The position numbers were made by a program, and so were the translations under genes. Shown piece after piece: positions 1,888 through 46,209 of a DNA stretch of 64,000 bases; positions within the stretch are counted from its first letter, which is position 1; every line of letters starts with the position of its first letter. The stretch is from Annona cherimola (taxonomy: Eukaryota > Streptophyta > Magnoliopsida > Magnoliales > Annonaceae). Location: positions 7,839,579-7,903,578 of the forward strand of contig CM059975.1 in the NCBI GenBank assembly GCA_030490835.1. Reading direction: 5' to 3'. The notes beneath the pieces are model-generated. The model was not told the DNA's origin. It saw only the letters and a program-made list of their open reading frames with translations, and did no database searches.

Positions 1888-2140
1888 GTAGTACATCAAT
1901 GCTTGATGATCCATATATCATGTATTGGGAACATATTCATTTGTTAGTTTAAAATAAGCAGAGTTCACTTTGCATTTCCTACTACCAATGACCGAATAAC
2001 CTGTAGTCTATATTGTAGTGTTCTGAAAGCTTGTATTTAGTTCATGCGGGTTTGAGATTGTTGTTATCGGCGGCGTCGTTATTATAATTAAATAATTGCC
2101 GCGTCCATGGGCAAACTTTCTTCTTCATCGCAGCCATTAA

Positions 2141-2174
<34 letters not shown>

Positions 2175-2272
2175 ACAGGCCTGAAGATCACAGAAACAAT
2201 ACCCTTACTGAGTCCCCATGCCCGATCCGTACTTGGAACTCTTTTTGATCCAATTGTTTGATGTAGATTGCC
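1888..2272. other. 3' flank of GLP relic A, no gene seen
   Basis: Holds the TC microsatellite and otherwise unrecognised sequence. The homology with copy 2 stops at 1937, where copy 2 carries a 2.25-kb deletion. Confidence 0.6.
2141..2174. repeat. (TC)n microsatellite
   Basis: A nearly pure TC run of about 34 bp, present only in copy 1 because the region is deleted from copy 2. Confidence 0.9.
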
Positions 2273-2728
2273 TTGATCGAACGTTTTGTTCGGTCCATGC
2301 ATTTTCTGGGATACATGACCAATGGTGACCCAATCATGACATTCTTCTATGAAGTAATCACTTTATTGTCTTGGTCATCTAGCTTCTTGCCATGGATAGC
2401 GATGAGGGCCAATGAGCTTTGTGGCATAGCTATCATCACCCACTATCGGATTTTGTCCCCCCTGCCTCTTGGAACTTGCCTTCTTGCTTTGCAGATCAAT
2501 GGTCCTCAACTCCTAATGATGCTGAGATTTGGATCGCAGTTCCAAGAAAATTCATCGTGGAATATGAAGAAAGATGAACTGACGACCCCATATGTAATAC
2601 ATATAATAGACGCATTCATCATCCCAATTACGATCCACTTTCCATTACTTCAACAAAACAAGGGAAGGAACATTGCACCTATAAAGAGGTCCATGTTGCT
2701 CACATATCTCAAGAACTCTGTCGGAAAT
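2273..2728 (+). other. Unrecognised open frame cut by an LTR insertion
   Basis: An open frame starts at 2273 and runs into the LTR element that begins at 2729, stopping at 2791 inside it. The upstream part has hydrophobic runs. A second frame at about 2495-2570 (AEIWIAVPRKFIVEYEE) looks at least as protein-like, so this may be a decayed gene fragment with frameshifts. I do not recognise a family. The base composition is less AT-rich than its surroundings, which fits a captured or old exon. Confidence 0.3.
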
Positions 2729-5700
2729 TGTAGCGCCTCGACCTGTGGGCGCGTCACACCGCATGATACCTTACTCCACGGATCTTTTTAGGTGGTGAAA
2801 CTTATGAATGAAATAGAAAGTTTCATGCTTATATGAGCGGAAGCTTTTCCTAATTTGTCGGGAAATGAGCCTAAATTTTTTTTTCTTCTCTTTAGAACCA
2901 ACATTGGTTCCATTTTATTAACTAAAATCCGGCAGCATACATTCTATATTTAGAATGTTTGGGCAATACAAAACCTAATAGTCAATATAATTTCAATATT
3001 TTCTACTAATTCACTCACATTTACTTCAATTTAAACTAATACATTTCTTATATGATTATATTTCATATGAGAAGCTAACTACTGCATTTAAGAACTATAT
3101 AAAACATTCAAATATAATACATACCACAATTATAATAATTACAATCCAATGGCTCCAAATTCAACACAAATATTAAAAATCATACATTCACTGCTCGGCT
3201 AGCAGTGAAAGCTTTTCTATCAAATCTGCATCATCTGCACTCATTCATTAGTTGAAAACAATGAGTATAAAATACTCAGTAAGAAAGCATTTAAAAATAT
3301 GTACTGCTCAAAGCTTATGGCATTAACCAAAATAATAAAACTCTTAAAATCTCATTATGCATGTTTGATAATGAGATGAATGCACACACATGCATCATTC
3401 TATGACTTATTCTTCATTTGACGGATGACACTTATCAAGTGATCACTTGCTCATACATCGGACGCACCGACCAGACAACGTTAATGACGAACTACTTGTC
3501 CAATTACAACATTGACAAAGCCTCATGCATGAGTTCTATTCACATGTGCATTTTATGCATTTATGACATGAATTCAGTTTTGCCAACTTAACATGATAAC
3601 AAGATTTGTACATGAAAATCAAGTTGTAAAAATATTTCAAATACATATTTTTTTTGTAAAACATATGCACAGGGTAACGACCATCCCTAAGTACCTTTTC
3701 AATGCATGTCAATTTAAAGAAACATTTAAATAAAACAAACTCACTTGAAATAAAAAGGCAAGAATAGATTTTTCTTACTATTAAAATTTTTTTGAACAAC
3801 AAGAATCTTGAAGAGCTTGCTTACTTCTTCCTCTTAGCATTCCTCCAATTTTCTTTTATACTTTCCTTCATCTTTCCTTTACCTCTTCCTATTATAGCCA
3901 ACAAAGAATACATCTAAATATTTATTTAACCCATCACACATACTTATTTCATAATTAATTATGTATCTAATGACATATTTTTTCGAGACTTTTGGACGTG
4001 GAGTTCAAGTATTTATTAACTTGAAATCTCCTTATTCAAAGTTCCTAACTCCTTTTTAACTTAACCACACTTTCGAATTGGATGAACCATAACCTTACAA
4101 GTTAACTACCCTTGAAATACCCTTTACACCCAAACTTGAACTGAATCTGAAATTTCTTACTTTTCAAGCTATTTAAACCTTTATACCATCCCACATTTAG
4201 CTACATTTGAATAAGTTTATAAATTGCATTGGCTTTGTATTTAATACTTAACTAATAATTGCAATTTAAGTTTAACTTTATACATAACACATAATGAACA
4301 TATAAGCTTAGTATAGCTTTTACATTGTTTATACAACTTAAAAGTTAGTATATGCTATTTTTCTTTTGTCTCCATAAAAATTTATATTTTCAAATAGTAA
4401 ATTCATCTATTGCAACTTAGATCTCATTTACACATAATAGGGTTACCTACATTGACGCATTGATTGGGTTTCCTATTACTTATATTTATTTCTTTAAAAT
4501 CTCAATCATTTAATTCAATTTAACTATCTAATAACAATTAAGATCATTTAACATATTAACTAATAACCTTATTTTACCCAAACATATATCTTATTTCCTT
4601 CCATTTTATTTAAAATCTTGGTTTAGTCCTTTCAATATTACTTACACATATAAAAAAATCATCGCACGCTTAGACAAATATCTTATCCTCATTTAAGACA
4701 TCAATACAGTGACATCATAAAAAGTAAGTTAATTAATCTATAGATCTTTCATACTTAGAATTTATAAATTTTAAACTGTATCATATCTAAAATTTTATGT
4801 ATTATAAGCTATTAAAGCCTCTTCATCCCTTTGTATTAAAAAATATACTTAGATAACTCATATATGCATAAACTTTGCATTTAATATAAAAATTAAGACA
4901 TATGGAATAATAGACTTTTCACTCGATATATAATTGACATTTTCATGTTGTAAGGCCATTTGAACTTAAGATAGCCTTTACAGCTTTTTTTTTTCAATTT
5001 CCCCTCAAAACATAACCATCAAATTTTACACTTGCTTAAAATGCATCATTTATTTCACTTCATTTAAATTTTATTTCCTTTCTACATAAACCATATGTTA
5101 ATCTAATAAATTTGTTTTCATACCCAAACAACCTATTAACTATGTTATTTGACTTAAATCTTCAACACTCATAGCTTAACATATAATGCCTCATCATCTA
5201 ATCATTAAAATAATCATAATTATATAAATACAATAATTAAATGTAGGGCCCGGTCCTTTTTTTAAAAAAATTAATATGCTGCTGCATGTGCACATTTTTG
5301 GTGCACATGCAGAGCACCAAACAATATAAGGGGTGTAAGAGAGTTCAAGCGGGCGCTCGAACAATCAGGGAGAAAAAAAATTAGGAGAGAAGAAGGAGAA
5401 GAAGAAAGAAAGAGGAGGAGAAGGAAGAAGAAGGAGAGGGAAGAGAGGAGAAGCTCATCGTCGCCCTGCCCACGACGCCGTCCACGCAGCCGTTGCCGGG
5501 TTGCCGGAGGTAAGGAAGAAATAGTTTTTTGGTTGGATTTTTCTAATTTTCACTTAAATCATGCAATAAACATATGAGTTTTGCTAAAATACCTTAGATA
5601 AACATGTATAGAAGTAAATTACACCAATTTGGGTATTAGATTTGGTTATTTAAGGATCTAAGAGTTGAAATGGATAGAATTTTGATTTTTATCTCCAAAA

Positions 5701-7004
5701 ATATCTGAAAAATCATGGGGCTTTCGATAAATTCATGAATAAGAGGATATTTGGAACCCAAATCATGAAAATGGAAGGCTAAAATCAAGCCAAGTGTGAA
5801 ATAAAAAATTCAAGAGTGGTGTATCCAAATTTATTGTTCAAAATCATGGTATAATAGTTGCAAATGCTATTAGGATGTATTAGCTATAAATTAATATGCC
5901 CAATTTTAGGTAAAAAGGAGAAAAATTAGAATTTTTCATGACCCGTGGAAATTGTGCAGCCCCAAAAACATGGGTTAAACATGGGGCTTTTGGAGTATTT
6001 GATTTAAACATTATTTATGGATAAATTTTAAGATGTTTGGAGTGTTAAAATATAAATTTTTTTTATAGAGATGTTATGCTAAATTGTAGATAGGGTAAAG
6101 GTGTCGGAAATTTATATGAAATTAGTGGATAGTGAATTCACACCATATAAGAATGATTGATAGATTTTAATATGCCTAATATATGTATCTTAAGTAGGCA
6201 CTTAATGGATAAAAAAATATTATCTTTCAAATCAACGCATCCATAGCCATTAAAATTAGAATGCAATACATGGCAATTTAAGTCAATGCTTAGCCAAATT
6301 TTTTAATTTTGATAGGAAAAGGAAAAGAGAGTGCAAAACACAACCTGAGACTTTAAGGTAAGCAAACTTTTCAAATTCAATGATTTATTGTGATAACATG
6401 TCTGTTTTGTTACTTACTTTGAGAAAGGTTGTTGCAACAAATCTTCATGTTATGCCGTTATATGTTTCCTTAGAAATATGTGCAAATCAACTTAATTTCC
6501 TTAGGTATGCTAATTAAATTTTATACAAAATTAAGAAAATCTTTGGAAATGGTCATTACCCTATTTGTTTTATATATATATATATATATATTCATGTTGT
6601 TAAGGCAATGCTTTCGAACTTGACTTTTGGAAACGAACCTTTTCTTTACGATTAGCTGAATAAACTCCTTTTATGACATAAATGCACTTGATCATTGGTG
6701 TGAATATAATTCATGCAAGAAAATGAATGTAAAATTTCGCCGAGGTTGTAATTGGACAGGTTGTCCGTCCTTGACGTTGCCTAGTCGGTGCGTCCGACAT
6801 ATGAGCGTGGGTGATCACTTGATAAGTGTCACCTGCCACAAAGGAAACTATGTTATTGAATGATGCATGTTGTGGTTGTATTTCATCCTCACGCATATAT
6901 GATGATCTATGAAGGTTTTCATATTTTTTTCTATTAACAACGCTTGCTTACTGGGTTCTTTGAACTCACCGATTTTATTAAACAGTTGTAGAGTATTCTG
7001 ATTT

Positions 7005-9477
7005 TGTAACGGCCAGCACTTGAAGGGGAAGAGAGCCGTTTTAAAAAAATTAAATAAATAAACAGTGGAATTTATGACATTTAATCCCAGCCGTTTAGCA
7101 AATGCATCAGTATAAGAAGGGGGGCATAGGAGATGATTTCTTTGTTTGAAAAAAAAAAGAAAGGAAGAAACGAAACAGAGCGATGGACTGAAGAAGAAGA
7201 AGAAGAGGAAATTGAAGGTATGTCACATATAACCATTTTTCAGTTAATCTCGTTCATTTCACAATATATACAACTCATTTTGGTATATTTAAACCATTCA
7301 CAATGTTTCTAGCATGTCTAATTAGTCACCTGAGTATTATTGAAACGTTCGATGTTGAAATTTTACTTATTTCAATGAGAAGTAGCAAATAAAGGGTAGA
7401 AAATTCTATATAATGAAATAAACATACTTCTGGGCATTATCAGAGAATTTTGACTGTACAATAACAAGATAATCATATGTTTAGCTTGCCTGCAAATTTT
7501 CAACAAGATCAGACTTATAGATTTATAGATATAGTAATTTTTATGAAGATTTAGACCGGTGAATATGTATTTTAAGGATAAAAAATAAAAAAATAATTAC
7601 AGGAAAATACAGAAGCAAAAATAATAATCTGACCCATTACAAACATTATTTAAGATATTTTACAGTATATACAATGAATTAATTTTGTTAAAAATTAATT
7701 TACATAGCTATTTGAAGTGATATGTAATTTTAACCCTTTATTAAACCCTTTATGTCAAATTTGATGATAGAGATGTTATTTTGAGAAATGGACCGTCCAG
7801 ATTATAAAACATAATTTTATAAGCTTACTCCTAAATTTTCATATCAAACAGAAATTTATATTAAGAGATATAAGCTATTATATTCAGAGAATACGGATCG
7901 TTGAAATAAATAAATAAATAAATAAATTTCTGGAGGTGGGCTAAACCTATCTGGACAAGTCCAGTGAACCAGTAAGCCCAAAAGAAAGTCCATTAGTCCT
8001 AAGCTCACAAAAACTAAGCTCAAGTTATAGAAACCAAGCCTAGCCCACATAAGCAACCTGGCCCAACTTCCAAGCAAAGGACTCAGCCCACTTGTGACGG
8101 CCCAGCATAGGTCTGGCCTATCGGAACAGCCTATCGGCGGCCAATTGCCGGCGCCGGCGATCGGCCGGAGAAAAAAAATCAAAATAAATACAGAAAAATT
8201 AGAAAAAATTATAGAAAATTATGAAAAATACCCAAAAAATTAAAGTCAATATTTACAAGCTTAAATGAGTTTAAATTATAATTTTTATAAAAAATGAAAT
8301 TATTTAAAAGGTGTGATGTTATAAAAATAAATAAATAAATTATGAAAAATTACAAAAAATATGAAAATTTAAAGTAAGTATTTAAAGAAGTATGAGTCCA
8401 AATTTATTTTTATATATAAGAAATAAAGTTGTTTAAAAGTGGAATAATATGATAATAAATAGGAAAAAATAGAATTTTGACTGATTAAAATTATGAAAAT
8501 TTTTGGAAAAGTCATAAATGAAAATTTAAATAATATTTATGAAAACCAAAGTAAAATAATGAACATATTGCGATGAAAATTAGGAAAAGAGACTTGAGGC
8601 TACTATAAGAAATAAAAAAAAAAAGAGTTTTAAAGTCTACTTAAAGGTAAGTAAACTTTTACCAAATCATGACTTTGAAAATATTATTTGAATATTGTGA
8701 TTTGCTATGAAATGTGATTATTTATTTAAATGTAAATTTTCTTTTAAGTTGATTTATTTAAATATGAGCATTATTATTTCAAAATTATGTTAATTAGTGA
8801 ATTTCAGTGGTGCATTAATCACAATGCATGAGCATGATGCATAATTGCATATTGGGTTTGCCGCCAAGGAGTAAAGTAGTATGATAGTACCTTGGTAGCG
8901 ACCTCAGGACTACCAAAGAAGATGAATTTTCCCACGAATGTGTAGCACCCCTGCACGCGAGCATAAGTAGATGATAATACCTACAGTGTGAATGCATGAT
9001 TTAAAATTGACATACGTGTACACATGTAACAAGATGTTTTTATCAATTAGAGTTTGTTGTGTATAAAAGACAATATAGATGTTATGTTTGTTTTTTGAAA
9101 AATGAAATTAATTGCAAAATGAATTTTGTAAAAATATATTTTTACTTACTGAGCTTTCAGCTCACATAATTTTATTTTTAGTGAAAATACAGAGATACAA
9201 TGATAAATTAAAGCCTTCATCGATATGAGAAAAAGACGAAACTAGCATAGCAAAGGACAATAAAGTTAGATTTTATAGAAATTATCTTATAATGTTTACT
9301 GGTTTTGATTATAGACACTGAATATGTATAATGACTTCAAAATGAACAAACTTGAGATGTAATAGTTAAAAGTTTTATGATTTTGCATCTTGGTATCTAT
9401 TTCCATCTTGGGAGATTTATTCTCAGTCTTGGCATAGTAGACATTATTCATAACACCTCAAAAGGTGGGGTGTTACA
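7005..9477 (+). mobile_element. Third-level solo-LTR-like element L3
   Basis: Begins TGTAACGGCC and ends GGGGTGTTACA, flanked by GATTT at 7000-7004 and 9478-9482. At 2473 bp it is shorter than L1 and L2 but keeps the same order of parts: GA-rich block ending AAGGTATG near 7216, AAGGTAAGTAAAC near 8644, and a CTTAC-linked stem-loop TGAGCTttcAGCTCA at 9150-9164. No coding region beyond short chance frames. Confidence 0.85.
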
Positions 9478-9929
9478 GATTTTAAGAGCAATGGAGACTT
9501 CACTGGGTAGAAGGGCAGTAAGGTGAAGAGCCATATGAGGCTCTCGTGTATATTTGAGTGTGATTTGTAATAAGAAAAATTTTAGAAGTGCTAGATTTTC
9601 TATTGATTTTGAGACATGTGTAAAATATATATATAATTTGTGTGCATGGCGTGAAAGATATTTGTAACATTAATTCATTTATATTGTGTGAATTGTATGG
9701 ATGTTTGGATGATGTAAGATGAAGAATATTGGAGTATGGGTGTTTGGTGTGACTATAATGAATTTGTGAAGAAAAGGGGGTGTTTGTGGTTATGATGAAG
9801 TGATACAAGTTATTTCTTGATGTAAAGAATTATATAGTGAATGTTTGTATTTAGGAAACATCCTAGTTACAGACAGGATGCTGCAGAAATTTTTATAGAT
9901 ATGTATATAAAAAAAATTTAGATCACTTT

Positions 9930-10209
9930 GGGTGTGTTTGGTAATGAATAAAACTTTTGATGAAAAGTTTTGTAGAGTAAAAGTTGTCAAATAATGTGAT
10001 ATGATAGAGGTAATGATGAGTAATAAAGAGTATAAAGTTAAAATAAATAGGTTAGTTGTGTGGATAGTTGTGTAGAAATGATTGAAAAGTAGGGTAGTTG
10101 TATAGAAAAATGTGAAAAAATGATTAAAAAATATGATAGTTGTGGAGATTAAAAAATTTTAGATTGAAAAGTTTTAACATGACATTATTTTTCAATTGCC
10201 AAACACCCC
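9930..10209 (+). mobile_element. MITE of the GGGTGTGTTTGG family
   Basis: 280 bp with inverted ends GGGTGTGTTTGG and CCAAACACCCC, inserted in L2. Internal sequence matches the copies at 23264 and 38721. Non-coding. The short flanking target repeat is unclear here. Confidence 0.8.
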
Positions 10210-12333
10210 ATTTATTTTTGCTTAGCGTATAAATGTAAGTTAGATTATGGACTTCACCACTTTTCAAAAGATTCTTGACATGAAATCCTATGACAAACTT
10301 ATGTATAAATATTTCATAGGTCGGGGCGCTATATTAAATGCCTAAAAATTAATATCCAAGCTCATAGTCTCAATTTAATAGTTGGGTTTTCCCCAACTTC
10401 CCTTTACTTCCATTTATCTAACTTATAATTTATCATTCCATCATCATTCATATGTATTATATTTTTTTAATATAATAATTATAACCCATTTACTATAGCC
10501 AAATTCATCATATATGCTCTTGCCTAAATTTAACCTTCATTTAGGCTTATCTGAAATTCTTATATACATATATATTTTTAATAATTACCATTTTGCTTAA
10601 CCTTTATTTATTACAAATAAATTTTATATCATGCTTCTAAAATTAAAAATTATTCATTTAAGAGCCACCTATAAACCCAAATTCATTACCCATACACTCT
10701 CCAACTTTGGTAAGTTAGATGAGAGGGTTTTAAGGTTTAAAATTAAGGGATTTTACTCCCTTTCATTTTCACATGATTTTAGTTCGACAAGTTCAATATT
10801 TTAAGACAATTCAAATAACCCTCCAACCATTCATACACGTCATACAATTGCTACTCATCATTTTCTACCATATTTATTTGATACCAAAATTATATAAAAT
10901 TCCCATACATATTTAGTTAAAACAAAACTCATACCTCCATACAAATTTCCTAACTACCCAATTTCATTTATCATATATGTCTAGATTTTGGCTTTAAGAT
11001 TTGCACATTTTGATCTAAATCCATGTTCATATATTATTAAATTACTAAACTTAATATTTACAAGCAACAACACATACCCGCAACATATATATCCACCTGC
11101 TCCTATTTTTTTCACTCATTTCCACATCCGAACGGGTTCAAAATTATTTATAAATCACCCCATATATAAATAGTATAAAAGCCCTATGCCTAGGCCACGA
11201 TTTTAGGACTTCTCCACATTCAAGGTATGATGAAAATTTTGAATTTGCTTTCCTACTCAAGATTATACATGTAATTTTACAAATAATACATCCCAACATC
11301 ATTTAAATACATTATATAACAATTTAGGACAAAAATATTAAAGCTTTTCAATTCTTGAAATTTCGGATTGATGCATAGGATTTAATTTTCACATTCAACA
11401 TATATTATTCGGCTCCCAAAATGAAGATCTATATGAATCTACGAAAATCCCCATGATTCCTACCTATTTTAGGAAGGAATTTTAAAACCCTAAGTTACAA
11501 TAGCCACAAATCCGAATTTCTATCCCATTTTCTATAATTCCTCTCTTCATTCTTATAAATGTACCCATATTTAACAAAATCTCCATGATTTTCATAAGCT
11601 TGGAAAGAAAATTTTGAAAATTAACAAAACCCATCTTCCTTACCTTCTGCCGGTGATGGGTTGGACAGCGGCAGCGGCGGCAATGTGGGCGGTGGACGGC
11701 GGACGACAAGCAGCCTCCTCTCCCTTCCTCCTCTTCTCCCTTCTCCTTCTTCCTTCTTCCCTCTTCCTCCTTCTTCTTTTTTTTCTCCTCTCCTCCCGTT
11801 TTCTCTCCCGTTTCAGCCCTGGAAGGGGCTAATGCCCCCTTTCGGTTTTTTTTAATTCTATTTTGGTAGTCACACGCATACACAAGTGGCTGCCCCTTTT
11901 CTTTTGGTACTCCACACATGTATATATGTGGCTACACCTCTTTATTATTATTATATATATATCCATATATATTTACATATATGAATCATAAAATTCTAAA
12001 TTTTATAACTTAAATCCACAATATGCATTTTAAGCCATTAAATCATGGTTATTCATTAATTTAAACAATTTAAATCTATAATTACTTACATTAAACCATT
12101 TAACTAAAATTCATTACTTAATCTAAAATTAAATAATACATTTTATTATTATTCCATTCAACATTAACACTCTAACTCATCATTGTTTATTTATTAATTC
12201 TTCCTTTTCTTACTTTATAATTTTAAGCTATTAATAAAATTCTAATATTATTAATTTCATGGCCCAAAATTTTCATTTATATATGTCACGTACTTATGAG
12301 TTGCAATCTAAAAATTACGAGTACTACAGAAAT

Positions 12334-12601
12334 TTTCTAAAATTAAAATAAACTCATCATGTAGTTGGGAGCCAGGCAACGTCTAATTCTATCTTGTAGG
12401 GTCTCACCCTTTTAACGCAACTCATCATGGAACTTGGGACCAACAATACTCCAAAACTAGTTAGCTCCGCCTTCATTCAACCACACAACATTGCACTTCT
12501 ATCATCAAAATAAAAACTCATTGAGTTGAGATGCTGCTTATATTATTAGATATGTAAAATGGAGTATAAGCTAACAACATTAGAATGCATAGAGATGCTG
12601 C
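12334..12601. other. Intergenic between L1 and GLP relic B
   Basis: No gene seen. It contains two related short phrases (actcatcatgtagttggga and actcatcatggaacttggga) about 60 bp apart, a small direct repeat. Confidence 0.5.
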
Positions 12602-13386
12602 TTATTTAGAAAGAATATCTAAGAAAATATCCAAACCTACCTTGTAAAGCACTACTTCTCGCTGAGCCTGGATAAAATTAATGATCTTCTTATCCACTTG
12701 GAAATCCTCTACAAGAACATCGTTCGAGATGAGCGGATTGGATTCAAAGACAAAATTAGCAATGGTGATGGTGTTGAGGTTCTTATTGGTCAAGCTTGCA
12801 ATCGTAACTACCTTAGTCTTCCAAAGATTGAAGTGGAAGTGAATGAGATTCATGGAGAATACGAAGATGTCACCCTTGTTGAGAACCTTGGTTATGAGAT
12901 GATTTTCAGGGTTGGAGGTGATGAAACCTATGTAGAAGGTGCGCTCTAGCACTGTTACGATCTCTATTACACATCGGCGCATATGAGAAGCATTGATGCC
13001 AGAGGGAGCAAAGATGATGCGAACCAAGGAGATTCCCGAAGTGTTAAACCCCACTATCTGCGCCACATTCACTTGGGTGATGTTGGATCTAACTTTGTTG
13101 GCTATGTTCCGGGCTTGTTTAGCACTTTTAAGAAGAAATCATTGGCCTTCACTTTGCTGGGGATCCTTGCTCACATGCCTATCAACCAAAATTGAGCAGA
13201 AAAATGACAAAATAAGGAATGATTTGAGTTACTATATAAAAAAGGAATGCTTTGAGTTAGCCCAAATAGAAAAGTCTCACTATAAGAGAAGTTGCAATCA
13301 AGTTGAGAAACACTGATGGAGAAAACATAACAACGTACTTAGAGACTTGGGATCAGCGACGCGGAAGTCTTGAATAAGGGGTGCAA
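12602..13386 (-). pseudogene. Germin-like protein relic B (metal site lost, frameshifts)
   Basis: Exon 2 reads on the minus strand as a GLP cupin (NVAQIVGFNTSGISLVRIIF ... KGDIFVFSMNLIHFHF ... DKKIINFIQAQ). The first cupin box, normally PHTHPR..E, has become SHMRRCVIE, so the two first-box histidines are not in place, while the second-box His remains. The N-terminal part of exon 2 is frameshifted at about 13106, where one T is missing relative to copy 2, and again near the KDP motif at about 13165. An exon 1 remnant (PLIQDFRVADPKSL, Cys changed to Arg) lies at about 13339-13386. The frame runs past the usual QAQF end for about 20 codons. Non-functional as a metal cupin. Confidence 0.88.
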
Positions 13387-13877
13387 CACACGTCGCTTGT
13401 GCCGAGTTTCGGTGAACCCATATCCTAAGCCTATCGAATTTAGATGATCATAAATTCAAAAATTAAAAGTTGGGTTTGGGTCAGATTCAGACTGGGTTGA
13501 TATTGATTTCGATCTTGGTTTCTGTTCCGGCCTCGTTCGTGAGAAAAATCATATCATAATTCATACACTTGGTTAAAGATAAAATTGTTTCCCTGTGGCT
13601 TTGAGAATAAATGCTTAATTAATTTCCCAGCAAAATTTTAAAGCATCCAATTCTTTAACCGAGTCCGAAAAGTATATCACAGAAATATTTTGCATTGTGT
13701 TCTACATTCTGATTTTACATCTCTAACGAGAAAACCCTTGATTAAAAGAGCTGAATACAATGGTCCAAAAAAAAAAATGCTTAATAGTAATGAAGTGCGT
13801 AGAAGATCCTTCTACGTCTTTACAAGTGCACGAAAAATCGTGTCTAACAAAAATATAAAGATAAATGAGTACACTTC

Positions 13878-14044
13878 GCCCCGCGCCGTGACTCGAATGT
13901 GAGGTATATGACGCCACGCGCCATAACTTGAATATGAAGTACATGACGCCACGCGCCATGACTTAAATATGGGGTATATGACGCCACGCGCCATAATTTG
14001 AATATGAGGTACATGACGCCACGCGCCATGACATAAATATGAGT
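13878..14044. repeat. 35-bp tandem array
   Basis: Units start at 13909, 13944, 13979 and 14014, each beginning TGACGCCACGCGCCAT, with a degraded unit before them. Alternate units are more alike (ataacttg versus atgactta forms), hinting at a 70-bp higher period. Confidence 0.92.
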
Positions 14045-14309
14045 TTACGCTTAGCCCGTCGACCAGCGATGACTCGGTTTGGGAACTAGTGAGGGGCCCG
14101 TCGGCTACACTAGTGACCCTACACAGCAAACTAAGTGCGCTCTTAGCTTCTGGATTTACACAGCAGACCAGCGTGTCCCGCTTTCAGCTTCTGTACTTGT
14201 ACAAGAAACCAGCGTCTCCCGCTTTCAGCCTCTGGATTGAATAATTGGGTGGTTTTACCAAGAAATGGATTTAACCGGGTTTAAAAGTATTTTTAGGTCA
14301 ACTTTGACC

Positions 14310-14912
14310 ATTAAAAAGGGTTTGAGCCCAACTGGGCTTGTTGGGGGATTTTTGAGCCATCTTGGGCTTTTTGGAGATTTTTGAGCTATCTCAAGCTTTT
14401 TGGAGGGTTGGTAGCCATCTTGGGCTTTTTTGTAGAGTTTTGGGCCATCATGGGCTTTTTGAAGAGTTTTGAGCCAGCTTGGGCTTTTTTGAGGGTTTTT
14501 AGCCATCTTGGGCTTTTTGGAAAATTTTGAGCCAGCTTGGGCTTTTTGGAGAGTTTTTAGCCATCTTGGGCTTTTTGGAGATTTTTGGGCCAGCTTGGGC
14601 TTTTTGGAAAATTTTGAGCCAGCTTGGGCTTTTTTTGGAAAATTTTGAGCCAGCTTGGGCTTTTTGGAGAGTTTTTAGCCATCTTGGGCTTTTTGGAGAT
14701 TTTTGGGCCAGCTTGGGCTTTTTGGAAAATTTTGAGCCAGCTTGGGCTTTTTTGGAAAATTTTGAGCCAGCTTGGGCTTTTTGGAGAGTTTTTAGCCATC
14801 TTGGGCTTTTTGGAGATTTTTGGGCCAACTTGGGCTTTTTGGAAAATTTTGAGCCAGCTTGGGCTTTTTTGGAAAATTTTGAGCCAGCTTGGGCTTTTTA
14901 GAGATTTTTGGC
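14310..14912. repeat. About 29-bp tandem array with a 118-bp higher-order unit
   Basis: The basic unit is GAGCCAGCTTGGGCTTTTTGG plus a short AT spacer, in 20 or so copies. The variant GGAGAGTTTTTAGCCATC recurs at 14548, 14666 and 14783, giving a 117-118 bp four-unit period. Several frames on both strands stay open for over 100 codons only because the unit lacks stops; I do not call these genes. Confidence 0.92.
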
Positions 14913-15084
14913 TCGGATTGAGCGAAGAAGTCGTCATCATTTTTTTTTTGATATATATATATATGTATATATATATTTATATAATCTTAGAAGTCAAAAT
15001 CTTAATTTTTGGATGCCTTTGAATATATATGTATATTCTGATATATTTTTATAGAAAATACATATATATTTATTTTTATTTTCA

Positions 15085-15645
15085 TAAGAGGGAAAATATA
15101 CTTAACCCGTGTGTCAATTCAACCCGCCAGTCGGGGAGTATCCACGTTGGGAAAAGTAGTTTTTGAAAATAATATATATGTATATATATATTTATATATA
15201 AATAATATACATATATATATTTTTATAGGAGAAAATATACTTAACCCGTGTGTCAATTCAACCCGCCAGTCGGGGAGTATCCACGTTGGGAAAAGTAGTT
15301 TTTTTTTTTTTTGAAAATAATATATATGTATATATATATTTATATATAAATAATATACATATATATATTTTTATAGGAGAAAATATACTTAACCCGTGTG
15401 TCAATTCAACCCGCCAGTCGGGGAGTATCCACGTTGGGAATAGTAGTTTTTGAAAATAATATATATGTATATATATATTTATATATAAATAATATACATA
15501 TATATATTTTTATAGGAGAAAATATACTTAACCCGTGTGTCAATTCAACCCGCCAGTCGGGGAGTATCCACGTTGGGAAAAGTAGTTTTCGAAAATAATA
15601 TATATATGTATATATATATTTATATATAATATATATATATATATA
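15085..15645. repeat. 139-bp tandem array, four copies
   Basis: AACCCGTGTGTCAATTCAAC recurs at 15104, 15243, 15391 and 15530 (steps 139, 148, 139; the long step is an added T run). Each unit pairs a GC-rich half with a TA-rich palindromic half. The copies are nearly identical, so expansion was recent. Confidence 0.93.
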
Positions 15646-15762
15646 TTAAAGAAACTCAAAAATATATATCGGAGAACTCACGTTCTTCTTTGAGCACGGG
15701 AGAGCTGTCTTCGTTCTCGGCTCGAAGTTCTCTCTCCCTTTTTTTTGAGAAGCCGAGTGGGG

Positions 15763-15770
15763 TATTTATA
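15763..15770 (-). promoter_or_regulatory. Candidate TATA box facing the arrays
   Basis: TATAAATA followed by CCCCACTCGGC on the minus strand, with the CGCGGAAC cluster upstream of it and the tandem arrays downstream. The arrangement resembles the U3/R of an LTR read leftwards. No experimental support. Confidence 0.4.
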
Positions 15771-15796
15771 GGCTCTGCCGGGTTGGTGCGAGACCC

Positions 15797-16148
15797 CGCG
15801 GAACCGGAAGCTCCCGCGGAACCGTCTTCCCCGCGGAACTGTTTTTACCCGGAACCTCCTCTCCGTGGAACCGCTTTCCCGCAGAACCGGATTCACGCGG
15901 AACCTCTTCTCCGCGGAACTCAATTGGTCTTCATGCGCCTGCCGCGGAACTGCGTCCACGCGGAACCACGCTCCCGCGGAACTCTTTTCTGCGACATGCA
16001 TTTCCGCGGAACTAGCACATTCCATCACGCGGAACCAGCACATTCTATCTCGCGGAACCTCGAGCTGGTGCCTGTTGGGACCGTCTTCACGCGGAACTCA
16101 TGCATCCGCGGAACCTCGAGCTGGTGCAGTCATTCGCTTCCGCGGAAC
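15797..16148. repeat. Cluster of about 17 CGCGGAAC motifs
   Basis: CGCGGAAC or a one-base variant occurs about 17 times in 350 bp, mostly as CCGCGGAAC, at irregular 15-40 bp spacing. Longer phrases also repeat (CGGAACCTCGAGCTGGTGC at 16055 and 16110). This looks like an amplified short motif in a U3-like region, not coding sequence. Confidence 0.85.
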
Positions 16149-16687
16149 GATCGTTCAGTGACGGAATCCGACCGTTGATGCCCTGACATATCTTTTGCAT
16201 GGAAACACGCTATCTCCTGCAACTCCAGAGCTGGTAGCCTGTAGTTGCCGATCGGTGGCAGCGTGATCAGCGGCCCGGCGCATGCGTGCTGTAGCTCTAG
16301 ATTGATAGTCCTGCTATCTCCGTTTCCGCGAGAGCAATGCTGAAAACGGGCGAAAATCTTTAGGGACAGCGGAGGACGCCCGCTTCGCCTCAGCAGGCTT
16401 CCGTCCCAGAGTTGGTGGCGACCAAAAAGAACCAGCGACGAGGAAAAATCAGATTCGCAACAAATCAGTTTCTCATCCGATTCCCTTGGCTCTTCCTCCA
16501 TCTCTCCCTGCGCACTACACTCTTTCTGCGGGAAGAAAGAAAGAGGGAGAGGAAAGAAAGAGAAAGAAAGAAAAAGGAGATGCCTCTGCTTTTGAGGCTT
16601 TTCTCCTTCCTCTCCTTCAGCCCCATCTCTTCTATTGTTTCTTTCATATCATGAACAGAACCCATCTTGTTGTCTTCTCCGAAGAAG
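16149..16687. other. GC-rich stretch, possibly captured 5' flank
   Basis: Unlike the AT-rich neighbours. The end (about 16540-16680) is GA-rich, then pyrimidine-rich, and leads directly to the cyclin start codon, as a plant 5' UTR would. The first part is not recognised. Confidence 0.4.
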
Positions 16688-17155
16688 ATGACCCGGCAGC
16701 ACCAACCTTCTCCTTTCTTCCTTCTCGATGCTCTCTACTCGAACCAGACCTTTTTTCTGGCTTCTGCTCGGAGGGAGGCCGTGGAATGGATGCTCAAGGT
16801 CAATGCCTACTATGGATTCACGCCGCTGACGGAAGTACTCTCCATTGATCATTTCCATAGGTTCCTCTCCAGCGTCCATTACCAGAAGGACAAGTCGTGG
16901 ATGATACAGCTTGCTGCTGTCGCTTGCATTTCTCTAGCGGCCAAGATTGAGGAGACCCAAGTGCCCCTTCTCTTGGGTTTGCAGGTAGAGGATTCCAGGT
17001 TCGTGTTCGAAGCAAAGATGATTTAGAGAATGGAACTGCTGGTGCTCTCGACGCTGAAATGGAAGATGTATCCCGTGACGCCGCTTTCGTTCATCGATCA
17101 CATCGTTCGACGGCTGGGATTAAAGAACCACCTGCATTGGGAGCTTCTCCAGAGG
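16688..17155 (+). pseudogene. D-type cyclin fragment
   Basis: From ATG at 16688 one frame reads like a plant cyclin D N-terminus (SPFFLLDALY) and cyclin box: REAVEWMLKVNAYYGF, then SWMIQLAAVACISLAAKIEE, TQVPLLL and VEDSRFVFEAK, then after a stop RMELLVLSTLKWKMYPVTPL and a final part ending HWELLQR. D cyclins partner CDKs at G1/S. Compared with the family, roughly 50 residues of the acidic N-terminal region are missing between LDALY and REAVEW. CAG has become TAG at 17024-17026. Homology ends at about 17155, before the second cyclin fold is complete. No introns interrupt it. CYCD3-like by motif memory; the subgroup is uncertain. Confidence 0.88.
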
Positions 17156-17250
17156 TGGTGCGGCGGAAGTGATCAGAGCCTGTGGTTCCGACGGTGCCAC
17201 GGCCCTCCACTGTGCTGCCGCCGACCGCTTTTCCCGGTGCGAAATCCTCC
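17156..17250 (+). pseudogene. Ankyrin/CCCH-protein-like fragment
   Basis: Immediately after the cyclin homology a different frame reads AAEVIRACGSDGATALHCAA. This matches the ankyrin segment (cGSDGaTALHCAa) typical of plant tandem-CCCH zinc-finger proteins. It covers about 20 codons and then degenerates; no zinc-finger part is present. The family assignment rests on one short motif. Confidence 0.5.
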
Positions 17251-17468
17251 TGCGCTCCGGCTTCTTTCTTTTGCATTTTTTTTTTCTCCGTAGGCAGAGA
17301 ATCTCTCTCTGTGGCTTGCATGCACCACTGGATCCGTTTTTCTCTGCCTCGGAATCTCATCTCTTCCCGATCTGAAACACCACAGCAAAGCTTGGAGATT
17401 CTCCGCCAATTCTCCCACGTGGGAGACTTAATCTGTCAAGGGACCTCGAAGGGGAAACGAGAAGCGGG

Positions 17469-17562
17469 ATGGGATCGGAGCTAATGTTCAAAGGCCACGA
17501 CTCGCTGCCGGTTGCCGACGCATTCTCTTCGTCCAGTACTGCTTCAACCCAGCAACAGATCG
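17469..17562 (+). other. Unrecognised coding-like fragment
   Basis: ATG at 17469 follows a leader-like stretch and opens MGSELMFKGHDSLPVADAF with a Ser-rich continuation. It may be the N-terminus of another captured gene. No family recognised; it merges into the ubiquitin-fold fragment in another frame. Confidence 0.3.
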
Positions 17563-17718
17563 ATGGCGGACATCTACCAGATATTCGTGAAACATCTGGA
17601 TGGAAAGACGCGATGTCTCCGCCTTCCCACCACGACGATCTCTTGCTCAGACCTCAAGCAAGCTCTTCTTCGTTTAACGCAATGGTTTGAAAGCAACGAA
17701 AGAAGAATGTGGAGCTGA
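17563..17718 (+). pseudogene. Ubiquitin-fold fragment, SDE2-like N-terminus
   Basis: ATG at 17563 starts MADIYQIFVKHLDGKTRCLR, a beta-grasp ubiquitin-like pattern (QIFVK.L.GKT), followed by ISCSDLKQALLRLT. The bases before the ATG are open in the same frame, but the homology starts here. The closest family by memory is the plant SDE2-type ubiquitin-like proteins. After about 40 residues the sequence leaves the fold and stops at 17716-17718, so only about half a domain is present, without the C-terminal Gly-Gly. Confidence 0.55.
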
Positions 17719-17721
17719 GAA

Positions 17722-18125
17722 AGGAACTGAGGGTTGCCCAATGCGCCGGCGCTAAGTATCACCTCGCCGTTCAGTCGGAACTTGGCGCGACTTCCCATTG
17801 CGGTCTCTGTTCATGATGCCAAAATCCGACTACTTTCCGTCGAGACTTCTGCGGAAAAGAACCCTCTCTATACTGGTATGGAGAGCAATTTTGGCGTCGC
17901 GCACGTAGCGCAGGAGATCAGCGGCGGTGCGCCGCCGGTCGTTGAACTCGAAGGTGGTGGCCCCGATCTTGGTGCCCACGGCATGCTTGATGGTGAATCC
18001 GTCTCCAACAGCGCATCGAGAACGGCCGACTGCCAGCTCCGGACATCGGGCTGAAAGGCGATGGCGCGCTCGACCCATTCGTAAGACGTGTTGACGAGCG
18101 CCATGTCACAGTCGACGGAAATGGT
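17722..18125 (-). pseudogene. HOTHEAD-like GMC oxidoreductase fragment, antisense
   Basis: On the minus strand three frames carry consecutive pieces of a HOTHEAD/mandelonitrile-lyase-like FAD oxidoreductase. These are SYEWVERAIAFQPDVRSWQ and AVLDALLE; then GFTIKHAVGTKIGATTFEF and RRTAADLLRYVRD through IERVLFR; then GEVILSAGALGNPQFL, the GMC signature region. At least two frameshifts separate them, some sequence between the last two pieces is lost, and the FAD-binding N-terminus and catalytic C-terminus are absent. The fragment is GC-rich and lies opposite in orientation to the cyclin fragment. Confidence 0.85.
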
Positions 18126-18142
18126 CTCTCTTGCATTCTCCA

Positions 18143-18531
18143 TTTCTTCTACTGCTACAGCAGTCTACAGCTCGGCTCCAGCAGAGAAGAAGAAGAAGAG
18201 TGAGGCTCCCCCCCCTCTCCCTAGTTTCAGGGATTCCATTTCAGCTGTTCGTCTCACCATTCGACGGTCCGGTGACACCATGCAGTCTGGCCTGATGAAG
18301 GAAGGAAGTCACTATTCCCTTCGGCACGCAGACTAGCACTGCTGAGGGATTCACCAAGTCGTTGCCCGAGGAGGCGAGGGCTCGACACGAGAAAACGATG
18401 AATATGAGGAAGAGATGGAGAAGCAGATGACTGCTCTCTCTCTTTTTTTTCTTTTTTTTCTTTTTTTTTTTTTTTCTAGATGAGAAATCATCTACTTGTA
18501 GTAGTTTCATAGTTAAAAATTTACCTCATCA
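18143..18531. other. Right end of the 5.0-kb block
   Basis: Up to about 18440 it is still GC-richer and may hold another unrecognised fragment. On the minus strand a hydrophobic run ([17 protein letters not shown]) resembles a signal peptide. A T-rich run (about 18439-18476) and a small hairpin (GATGAGAAATCATC) precede the CA end. Confidence 0.35.
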
Positions 18532-18536
18532 GTTTC

Positions 18537-41800: not shown

Positions 41801-43326
41801 AAAAATATAGTTAGATGCATAATTAATCATGGAATAAGTATTTGTGATGGGTGAAATAATGCTTAGATGTATTCTTTGTTGGCTATAATAGGAAGGGGTA
41901 AAGAAAAGATGAAGGAAAGTAGAAAGGAAAAATGGAGGAATGCTAAAGGGAAGAGGTAAGCAAGCTCTTCAAGATTCTTTTTGTTCAAAAGAATTTTATG
42001 GTAAGAAAAATCTATTCTTGCCTTTTATTTCAAGAAAGGTTATTTGCTAATGAGTTTGTTTTATTTAAATGTTTCTTGAAATTGACATGCATTGAAAAGG
42101 GTACTTAGGGATGGCCATTACCCTGTGCATAGGTTTTACAAAAAGAATGTGTATTTGAATTATGTTTTATAACTTGATTTCCATATAGAAACCCTGTTAT
42201 CATGTTGAGTTGGCGAAACTCAATTCATGCCATAAATGCATATAATGCACGTGTGAATGAAACTCATGCATGAGGCTTTGTCAAGGTTGTAATTGGACAG
42301 GTAGTCCGTCCTTGGCGTTGCCTGGTCGGTGCGTCCGACGTATGGGGCGGGTGATCACTTGATAAGTGTCATCTGCCAAACGATGGATAAGTCATGAAAG
42401 GATGCATGTGTGTGCATTCATCTCATCGTCACACATGCATAATGAGATTTTAAGAGTTTTATGATTTTGGTTAATGCCACAGGTTTTGAACAGTACGTAT
42501 TTTTAAATGCTTGCTTACTGAGTATTTTTATACTCATTGTTTTTAACTAATCAGTGAGTGCAGATGATGCAAATTTGATGGAAGGGCCTTTACTGCTAGC
42601 TAAGCAGTGAAGGTATGATTTTTAATATTTTTGATGAGTTTGGATTCATGAGATTGTAATTATTATAAATGTGAGCGTATTATATTTGAATTGTTTTATG
42701 TGGATGTTAAATGTAATAATTAGCTTCCTATGTGAAGGTATGATTTTTAATATTTTTGATGAGTTTGGATTCATGAGATTGTAATTATTATAAATGTGAG
42801 CGTATTATATTTGAATTGTTTTATGTGGATGTTAAATGTAATAATTAGCTTCCTATGTGAAGGTATGATTTTTAATATTTTTGATGAGTTTGGATTCATG
42901 AGATTGTAATTATTATAAATGTGAGCGTATTATATTTGAATTGTTTTATGTGGATGTTAAATGTAATAATTAGCTTCCTATGTGAAGTATGATTTTATAA
43001 GAGTGAGATTAGATGAATTTAAGTAGTTGTGAATGAATGTAATAGAGAATGCTAGATTATGTAATGTCTATCAGGTTTTGTAATCGCCCAAATGTCTTAA
43101 CCATAGACGGCATGCTGCCGGATTTTAGTTAAGAAAATAGAATCAATGTAGGTTCAGAAGAAAAGAAAAAAAAATTCAAGCTAATTTCTCGACAAATTAG
43201 GAAAAGCTTCCGCTCATGTAAGCAATGAAACTTCGGTTTCATTCACGAGTTTCACCACTTGAAAAGATCCTGGAGTAAGGTTCCGCGACTAAGCGGGTAG
43301 CGCGCCCACGGGTCGGGGGCGCTGCA
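38863..43326 (+). mobile_element. 4.46-kb solo LTR, same family as L1
   Basis: Starts TGTAATACCCGC and ends GGTCGGGGGCGCTGCA, with GTTAT at 38858-38862 and 43327-43331. Similar along its length to the L1 element at 2729-12328. Parts in order: stem CCGCACGT-GTGT-ACGTGCGG (39274-39293); GA-rich block; GC-rich block ending GACCGGAGGTAAG (39513); second AGAGGTAAGCAAGC (41952); paired short inverted repeats around GGACAGGTAGTCC (42296); CTTAC stem-loop (42519-42536); and a 125-bp triplicate. No protein domains. The absence of any second LTR or interior makes a solo LTR the best reading. Confidence 0.88.
42610..42984. repeat. 125-bp tandem triplicate inside the solo LTR
   Basis: AAGGTATGATTTTTAATATT recurs at 42610, 42735 and 42860, with essentially identical 125-bp units and a partial fourth. 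L1 has only one unit at the matching place, so the amplification is private to this element. Confidence 0.93.
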
Positions 43327-45374: not shown

Positions 45375-46209
45375 CTAGAACTGAGCTTGGATCAAGTCAA
45401 TCACTTTTTTGTCAACTTGGAATGCCTTGGCAAGAATCTCATCAGTGATTTTGGGCATTGAACCGAAGACCGCATTAGCAACGGTGATCACACCAGGATT
45501 CTGGCTACCAAACCCAGCGAGGGCAACCGCATTGGTCTTTGCCAGGTTGAGCTGGAAGTGGATGAGGCCGATTGGGAAGGTGAAGACATCACCCGGGTAT
45601 AAGATCTTTGTAATGAGCCTGTTGTTGGGGTTGGAGGTGACAAACCCAACAAAGAGAGTCCCTTCCAAGACCGTCAGTATTTCACTTGCCCTTGGATGAG
45701 TGTGAGGAGGATTCAGGCCAGCGGGTGCGAAGTCGATGCGGGCAAGCGAAACACCCAGAGTGTTGAGTCCCGCTATCTGATTTACGTTCACTGCTGTGAC
45801 ATTCGACCCGACTTTGTTTGCAGTGCTACCTGGTTTGTTCAGCCCGGTGAAGAAGAAATCATTGGCTGTGACCATTTTTGGATCCTTGCAAATAAACCCA
45901 TTCACGAAAACTGCAAAATATAATCGTATGGCATTCGTTAGCTGGCATCGATAAGTAAGAAAATAAAGGAGATCACTAGCTACATCATGCATGCTGTGCC
46001 GGTTTTCTTGTAGTGATCGGTGGGCCTTGCATGCTAGGATGTTTTGCTTATGATATATAATCATTGGCACCTCAAGGAGTTCAATATCAGAGACAACCTG
46101 GCGGCTTAAGTATGGCGACGCAGAAGTCTTGCAGTGGACTTGGGTCATAGGCATGGGTTAGAGCAGAGAAGGCGAGAAGAGCAAGTGCGAGGATGTGAGC
46201 AGCCATCAT
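45375..46209 (-). CDS. Germin-like protein G (two exons)
   Basis: Exon 1 is 46098-46209 and exon 2 is 45375-45910, with a 187-bp GT/AG intron; the product is 215 residues if the first of two adjacent ATGs is used, 214 from the second. The signal peptide ends near THA before [13 protein letters not shown]30 and C45 are the disulfide pair; N74-V-T is a glycosylation site. Box 1 [13 protein letters not shown] gives H107, H109 and E114; box 2 [12 protein letters not shown] gives H155. The intron is free of stops for a long way in the exon 2 frame, so intron retention would also read, but conserved splice sites match C. The intron contains TTTTCTTGTAGTG, a CACTA-like end, at 46003-46015. Close paralogue of C. 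Confidence 0.95.

Follow-up and report, generated by a model that had tools for sequence, protein, structure and literature searches.

A solo long terminal repeat in Annona cherimola whose U3 region carries pieces of several host genes, apparently copied from mRNAs

In a stretch of 64,000 nucleotides of the Annona cherimola genome (contig CM059975.1, positions 7,839,579 to 7,903,578; hereafter the window), the block 13523-18531 is the solo long terminal repeat (LTR) of a Ty3/gypsy-type element, with the element sense on the minus strand. We consider it highly probable (about 0.85) that this LTR was inserted after a local duplication and that its U3 region, which holds incomplete pieces of several host genes, is a mosaic assembled from processed mRNAs through template switching during reverse transcription. 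A preliminary description, made from the letters of the window, had proposed an LTR-type insertion with captured gene pieces, and had named a deletion in the second copy of the duplication as the alternative. Here, we set out the evidence on the insertion, on its family and on the origin of its cargo.

The insertion and its family

The two copies of the local duplication are spaced ~48 kb apart within the window. In copy 1 the block is bounded exactly as GTTTC|TG...CA|GTTTC, with the target-site duplication (TSD) at 13518..13522 on the left and 18532..18536 on the right, as placed by alignment to copy 2 and by reading, while copy 2 has a perfect empty site with one GTTTC only, in the sequence CTTGGTTTCAAGTTG. 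Identity between the flanks of the two copies is 97.6% on the left (9,365 columns, aligned span 4191-13522) and 99.0% on the right (1,469 columns, from 18532). Since copy 2 retains an empty site with a single GTTTC, the insertion is younger than the local duplication, and since a single LTR is enclosed by a TSD, the block is a solo LTR, a state that would have arisen by recombination between two LTRs. The block, its TG...CA ends, the GTTTC repeat and the empty copy 2 had all been recognized in the preliminary description, with coordinates that the alignment reproduces exactly. Its alternative, an ancestral block of which copy 2 lost 5 kb through 5-bp microhomology, is also compatible with GTTTC at both sides, but it is contradicted by the TSD, by block ends that match exactly the LTR ends common to many copies, and by the occurrence of the same TG...CA unit at other sites with different 5-bp duplications, and we give it next to no probability. 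The duplicates also differ at 1938-4190: copy 2 lacks these ~2.25 kb of copy 1, and its match to 1-1937 continues at 4191. Because an inverted third unit, at about 41-43 kb, contains matches to parts of this stretch, copy 2 probably lost it.

The 791.8-Mb assembly was searched with 13523-16150 as query, and 40 of 2,063 first-look candidates were scored. The U5-side end of the block is common to at least 40 distinct places, the window included, among the matches listed; at least 29 of these fall into 13 pairs and one triple with spacings of 15.8-18.8 kb, and the listed family members range down to 83% identity. For 20 of the best matches to the window, a sample that leans to young copies, loci of 8 kb were fetched (single loci are given L numbers below). 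On the window strand 19 of the 20 begin TGTTCCGGCC and one begins TGTTTCGGCC, and TTCACGTCGGGTTCACCATT, which is similar to a primer-binding site, precedes 11 of the 20 LTRs; at the other end, AATGCCCCCTCAGGAATT adjoins the left-hand LTR of a pair (seen at nine of the 22 loci scanned). On the opposite strand, this is a polypurine tract before the LTR, GAGGGGGCATT|TGATG, the remaining 13 loci consisting mostly of LTRs from the other side and of solo copies, and the LTR ends as GGAACA|AATGGTGAACCCGACGTGAA. The sequence following it, TGGTGAACCCGACGTGAA, looks like a primer site, putatively for tRNA-Trp. The orientation of the polypurine tract and the putative primer site therefore places LTR and element on the window's minus strand, where the LTR starts TGATGAGG at 18531 and ends GGAACA at 13523. 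The internal region of one relative (L041) encodes gag, reverse transcriptase, ribonuclease H (RNase H), a second RNase H and integrase, in this order, with RVT_3 at 1864-1982 between RT_RNaseH and Integrase_H2C2; a second RNase H before the integrase is presumably a mark of the Tat lineage.

TSDs could be read for nine insertions, namely GTTTC in the window, GTTAG (L009/L010), CCATG (L011/L012), GCAAT (L014/L015), CTTGG (L018/L019), CTTAT (L023/L024), ATTCC (L025/L026/L027, an array of three LTRs), GCGTG (L022/L039, a full element on C4) and CCCAC (L040, a solo LTR on C1). Paired LTRs are 99.73-99.97% identical (eight comparisons at seven loci), which at a substitution rate of 6.5e-9 would make the compared pairs roughly 0.03-0.2 million years old, older members being under-sampled. 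The LTR-type insertion of the preliminary description is thus borne out by the TG...CA ends, the 5-bp TSD and the LTR pairs elsewhere, and the test it had proposed, a search for further copies that differ in their cargo and in their 5-bp repeats, turned out positive. Its remark that LTR pairs are not recognizable holds for this copy, which is itself one LTR, but not for the family, in which such pairs exist elsewhere. The array at C6:78.47-78.52 Mb is an LTR-internal-LTR-internal-LTR structure of near-identical LTRs 17.5 kb apart, with ATTCC at its outermost ends.

Gene pieces in U3 and their donors

The gene pieces occupy U3, from its terminus to the TATA box. A cyclin D piece (16507..17157, plus strand, left edge approximate) holds the 5' untranslated region (UTR) and the N-terminal part of a gene at C7:37427528-37428499(-), with Cyclin_N at E 2.8e-22. 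It is followed on the plus strand by a short piece (17158..17203) that we take to be ankyrin/CCCH-like and for which no donor was located in the assembly, and by a 5' UTR and N-terminus (17204..17531) that we likewise take to be UXS-like, 91% identical to its donor at C2:101353548-101353869(+), one frame of which gave no match in Pfam. The 5' UTR and N-terminus of the splicing regulator SDE2 (17522..17672, plus strand; donor C1:90139777-90139927(-), 94%) is separated by 54 bp with no gene assigned (17673..17726) from a GMC oxidoreductase (HOTHEAD-like) piece on the minus strand (17727..18118). The nearest loci to the latter, 82-85% identical, lie in a tandem array at C7:68.15-68.74 Mb, and its true donor may be another paralogue. 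The last piece (18123..18435, plus strand), presumably of an NADPH-cytochrome P450 reductase-like gene, has its donor at C7:64252700-64253542(+), which carries Flavodoxin_1. Cargo and located donors are 82-94% identical. The GMC piece has the same orientation as the element, to which the cyclin D, UXS-like, SDE2 and reductase pieces are antisense. The four or more incomplete host gene pieces of the preliminary description are hence confirmed, its ubiquitin-fold piece being SDE2 and its antisense HOTHEAD-like piece the GMC piece on the other strand, with the UXS-like and reductase-like pieces as additions; the donors it had suggested looking for were found for cyclin D, UXS-like, SDE2 and reductase-like pieces, and for GMC the nearest array. 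As an observation on the array itself, many of its GMC oxidoreductase genes are ~27 kb apart (domain taken from one member).

The same cargo is present at 12 LTRs, the window included, among them both LTRs of the element with TSD GCGTG (L022/L039) and the solo LTR with TSD CCCAC (L040), the latter 98.1% identical to the window LTR over aligned columns. About 1.23 kb that the 11 other LTRs have is absent from the window copy, and because there is also an 18-bp overlap at the break, this absence is probably a deletion. The stretch holds an LBD piece (LOB E 5.2e-9; donor C3:94663347) and, by reading, the 3' end of an aquaporin, for which L017 has a matching MIP domain. The locus C3:15369444 was considered as aquaporin donor and rejected, being another copy of the chimera, and the poly(A) tail supposed for this piece was dropped with it. 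Six LTRs with the window cargo lie within 100 kb at C4:60.99-61.09 Mb in both orientations, as a cluster or as nested insertions.

The pieces appear to have been copied from spliced mRNAs of the host. Between cargo and donor genes there are six gaps of more than 90 bp, and three of them are clean GT-AG introns: a 98-bp donor intron exactly absent from the cyclin D piece, one intron of ~100 bp absent from the GMC piece by comparison with a donor-family locus, and the 111-bp first intron of the donor absent from the reductase piece. The cyclin D piece also skips 192 bp of the donor, which were considered as intron 1 and rejected, since they have no GT-AG borders and are coding sequence; the reductase piece skips 240 bp at a 9-bp direct repeat (CTGATGAAG) and has a further gap of 151 donor bases, not a clean intron, which by reading would be an intron removed together with coding sequence. 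The absence of introns noted in the preliminary description, which can be examined in three pieces, therefore stands for the three clean losses, but is qualified by the unclean 151-bp gap and the two coding skips. As to the starts of the pieces, the UXS-like one lies about 32 bp after TATAAA in its donor, the reductase one 39 bp after TATAAA and the LBD one 36 bp after TATATA. Three of five piece starts are probably mRNA 5' ends, their position after a TATA box being that expected if reverse transcriptase had reached the mRNA cap.

Cargo is not confined to the window's group. U3 domain scans covered seven LTR groups (the window's, L009, L014, L017, L020, L023 and L025) and donor searches the groups of the window and of L023. 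A host domain at E<1e-3 was found in six of the seven groups, with Cyclin_N in the window's; MutS_III, HSP70 and L7Ae in L014; tubulin, Myb, PORR, GH17 and PPR in L025; aquaporin (7e-44), DUF1685, L7Ae, two kinase stretches and HOP in L017; eIF3d, sugar transporter/MFS and GH17 in L023; and HSP70 in L020. With the same cargo at 12 LTRs, this upholds the multi-gene capture proposed in the preliminary description. A piece of L023 that we take to be PHT1-like is 95 and 91% identical to C2:120345573-120346378; inside it about 270 bases, with a weak ABC_membrane match (0.0021), replace 65 donor bases before the piece resumes, which suggests a jump out and back. The other cargo pieces of L023 recur elsewhere in different combinations. 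L042 and L044 hold the intronless cyclin piece, in L042 in element sense and thus opposite to the window, and share with the window copy about 23 bp past the cyclin end. These shared bases rule out an independent capture of cyclin D in L042 and L044; all three derive from one capture, later inverted or re-used, so that existing cargo is shuffled anew as well. Both L017/L043 and the window carry the UXS-like gene from its start, with different left neighbours; this may reflect two captures that each stopped at one and the same mRNA 5' end, the identities being indecisive.

In element sense, the LTR consists of the U3 terminus TGATG, often an A-run, the cargo, GC-rich repeats, a TATA box and R-U5. 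The conserved R-U5 (13523..15770, minus strand, ~2.2 kb), with the R boundary placed provisionally by the TATA box, contains tandem repeats of ~29 bp (about 14299-14997) and repeats of ~139 bp (about 15066-15728), and 13523-16150, used as control for the domain scans, gave no Pfam domain at E<1e-3 in six frames, with one match at 0.0099. The putative promoter TATA box lies in CCTATAAATACC (15763..15770, minus strand); as CTATAAATAC it is common to the window, L020, L023, L025 and L040, with a variant in L009, while it was not found in L011 and L018 gives an AT-repeat match only. Upstream of it are CGCGGAACC-type GC-rich repeats and a conserved subfamily stretch (15800..16506, minus strand), of which 16150-16506 occurs at 99-100% in at least 16 other places among the matches listed. 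At the other end, the U3 5' terminus (18476..18531, minus strand) starts TGATG and adjoins the polypurine tract in full elements, and a tract that is A-rich in element sense (18440..18475, minus strand) lies between it and the cargo. An A-run follows the U3 terminus in five of the eight groups compared (the window's, L009, L014, L017 and L018) and also in L042; this side is A/T-rich in L011, and the A-run is absent in L023 and L025, with TGATGAGG alone between purine tract and apparent coding sequence in L023. In an all-against-all comparison of 14 U3 sequences (11 groups in our own grouping), a few hundred bases on the promoter side are shared, and in most cases also the last ~90 bases, with scattered pieces only in between: L014-L017 (352 columns, 89%, inverted), L017-L022 (202 columns, 95%), L017-window (117 columns, 90%) and L020-L025 (217 columns, 92%).

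Origin of the mosaic

The following course of events would account for these structures. During reverse transcription in the virus-like particle, the enzyme would leave the element template within or near U3 and copy cellular mRNAs, often reaching their 5' ends; the next RNA would be entered by a jump at short matches, and the return to the element would take place close to the U3 terminus. Since both LTRs receive a copy of U3, both would then contain the mosaic, which would be inherited. Cargo may be tolerated because it is placed between the short U3 end required for integration and the TATA promoter. Possible short matches are seen at the ankyrin/UXS join and also in L023, at its U3 end, where one donor was not located. 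Sense pieces would fit switching during minus-strand synthesis, while antisense pieces would need switching during plus-strand synthesis or the copying of cDNA.

Several observations weigh against this course. Only three of the six gaps of more than 90 bp are clean introns, and as no aquaporin donor was found, the A-rich end of the aquaporin piece could be genomic. For cyclin D, the only such motif in the donor is ATAAAA, which lies 49 bp before the start in the window copy (the cyclin D piece of L040 begins about 20 bp further upstream), and no TATA motif lies upstream of the start in the SDE2 donor. The count of three of five donors with TATA[AT]A 32-39 bp before the start, with a chance of 0.0002-0.001 (test interval -42 to -28, such positions making up 0.8-5.1% of donor loci and 4.9% of the window), comes from starts placed by eye and an interval chosen after the data had been seen, and it covers neither L023's PHT1-like piece nor the GMC piece, whose start lies within the gene and not where an mRNA ends. 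The U3 of L009 gave weak domains, none at E<1e-3. Finally, of 20 domain matches (E<1e-3, related overlaps merged) 13 are element-sense and seven antisense, and simple switching on the minus strand would yield sense only.

Other ways of capture have therefore to be weighed against template switching. Multi-gene capture is typical of Pack-MULE and Pack-CACTA elements. It is also typical of Helitrons (PMC12477314), and a DNA transposon could have picked up genomic gene pieces; yet three donor introns are cleanly absent, neither the termini of these transposons nor intron-bearing cargo were found, and TG/CA ends, a 5-bp TSD, LTR pairs and a gag-pol inside a relative leave this explanation a vanishingly small probability. 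Intron loss, A-rich tracts and a cyclin piece in both orientations in different LTR groups would also be expected of processed pseudogenes made by long interspersed nuclear elements (LINEs) that landed serially in an LTR and later moved with it. LINE truncation, however, is the opposite of what is seen in the cyclin D, UXS-like, SDE2, reductase and LBD pieces, which retain the 5' UTR and break off within the gene; adjacent pieces meet directly or almost directly, with no target duplications between them in an unsystematic inspection by eye, and such landings would have to recur in the U3 of several groups, which makes this origin quite improbable. If, instead, free cDNA pieces had served as filler for end joining at breaks in U3, with no template switching, both the mixture of orientations and the presence of short stretches with no gene assigned, for instance 17673-17726, would follow readily, but the skip at the 9-bp direct repeat of the reductase piece and the starts near mRNA 5' ends favour template switching, and cargo in both LTRs also speaks against filler; we regard this account as unlikely.

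Template switching may be taken one step further, to a doubtful though not far-fetched proposal by which the family recurrently rebuilds its own U3 from host mRNAs, each success founding a group with a new promoter region. Element RNAs would be terminated by poly(A) soon after the start of U3 and would lack the 3' R for normal strand transfer, so that reverse transcription would reach them only through chains of cellular mRNAs. This proposal builds on the A-run after the U3 terminus in the five of eight groups and in L042. If true, the new promoter regions would have no homology to older copies and may escape homology-based silencing.

Elsewhere in the window, a germin-like (cupin) open reading frame (ORF) at 45375-46154 has four related repeats at 12657, 24263, 31848 and 60922 (68-77% or reference), plus inverted ones; it was the only ORF searched, and its highest identities are with Magnolia and Asimina (80-81%), the top matches by E-value being from other plants. 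Three tandem copies with 125-bp spacing, 100% identical over 131 nt, lie at 42607-42987.

Relation to known gene capture and significance

In the Bs1 element of maize, the cargo is internal and in element sense; here it lies inside the LTR, in both orientations, and is repeated across several groups of one family, which is what is new compared to the known mRNA capture. Bs1, which a review names together with BARE-2 and Veju elements (PMC13317346), is likewise an LTR element with several incomplete host gene pieces, from three cellular genes (PMC13317346, PMC5408686). Capture of mRNA by LTR elements through microsimilarity has been described (PMC5408686), and LTR-mediated retroposition (Tan et al., 2016, as cited in PMC5408686) shares with the present case the joining of mRNA and LTR element by template switching at microsimilarities, but it involves a limited part of one parental mRNA and not a many-gene mosaic in the U3 of both LTRs. 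BARE-2 and long Veju elements also acquired foreign sequence by abnormal template switching, in BARE-2 into the LTR (PMC13317346), although their cargo is retrotransposon or unknown sequence, in contrast to host mRNAs in several groups. In rice and sorghum, gene capture by LTR retrotransposons is likewise genome-wide; boxes of captured genes are drawn there separate from LTR boxes, and cargo inside LTRs or multi-gene mosaics are not described in the portion available (PMC3726574). The reviews consulted present gene capture by LTR elements as occasional, with cargo usually in element sense and in one or few copies, and in the open-licence literature searched by keyword no description was found of an element family whose LTRs contain mosaics of host genes. 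Retand and its Tat lineage, for their part, share a pol in which an additional RNase H separates the first RNase H from the integrase, which we assume to be the Tat mark, but the antisense ORFs of Retand lie between pol and 3' LTR and have no counterpart outside transposable elements, whereas here host genes lie inside the LTR.

The joins within this family provide a natural record from which rules of template switching may be read, with respect to run-off at mRNA 5' ends, microhomology and strand. Host exons, 5' UTRs and antisense pieces beside an LTR promoter are a possible source of chimeric transcripts, and the cargo is likewise a possible source of small RNAs against the donor genes and of false gene models.

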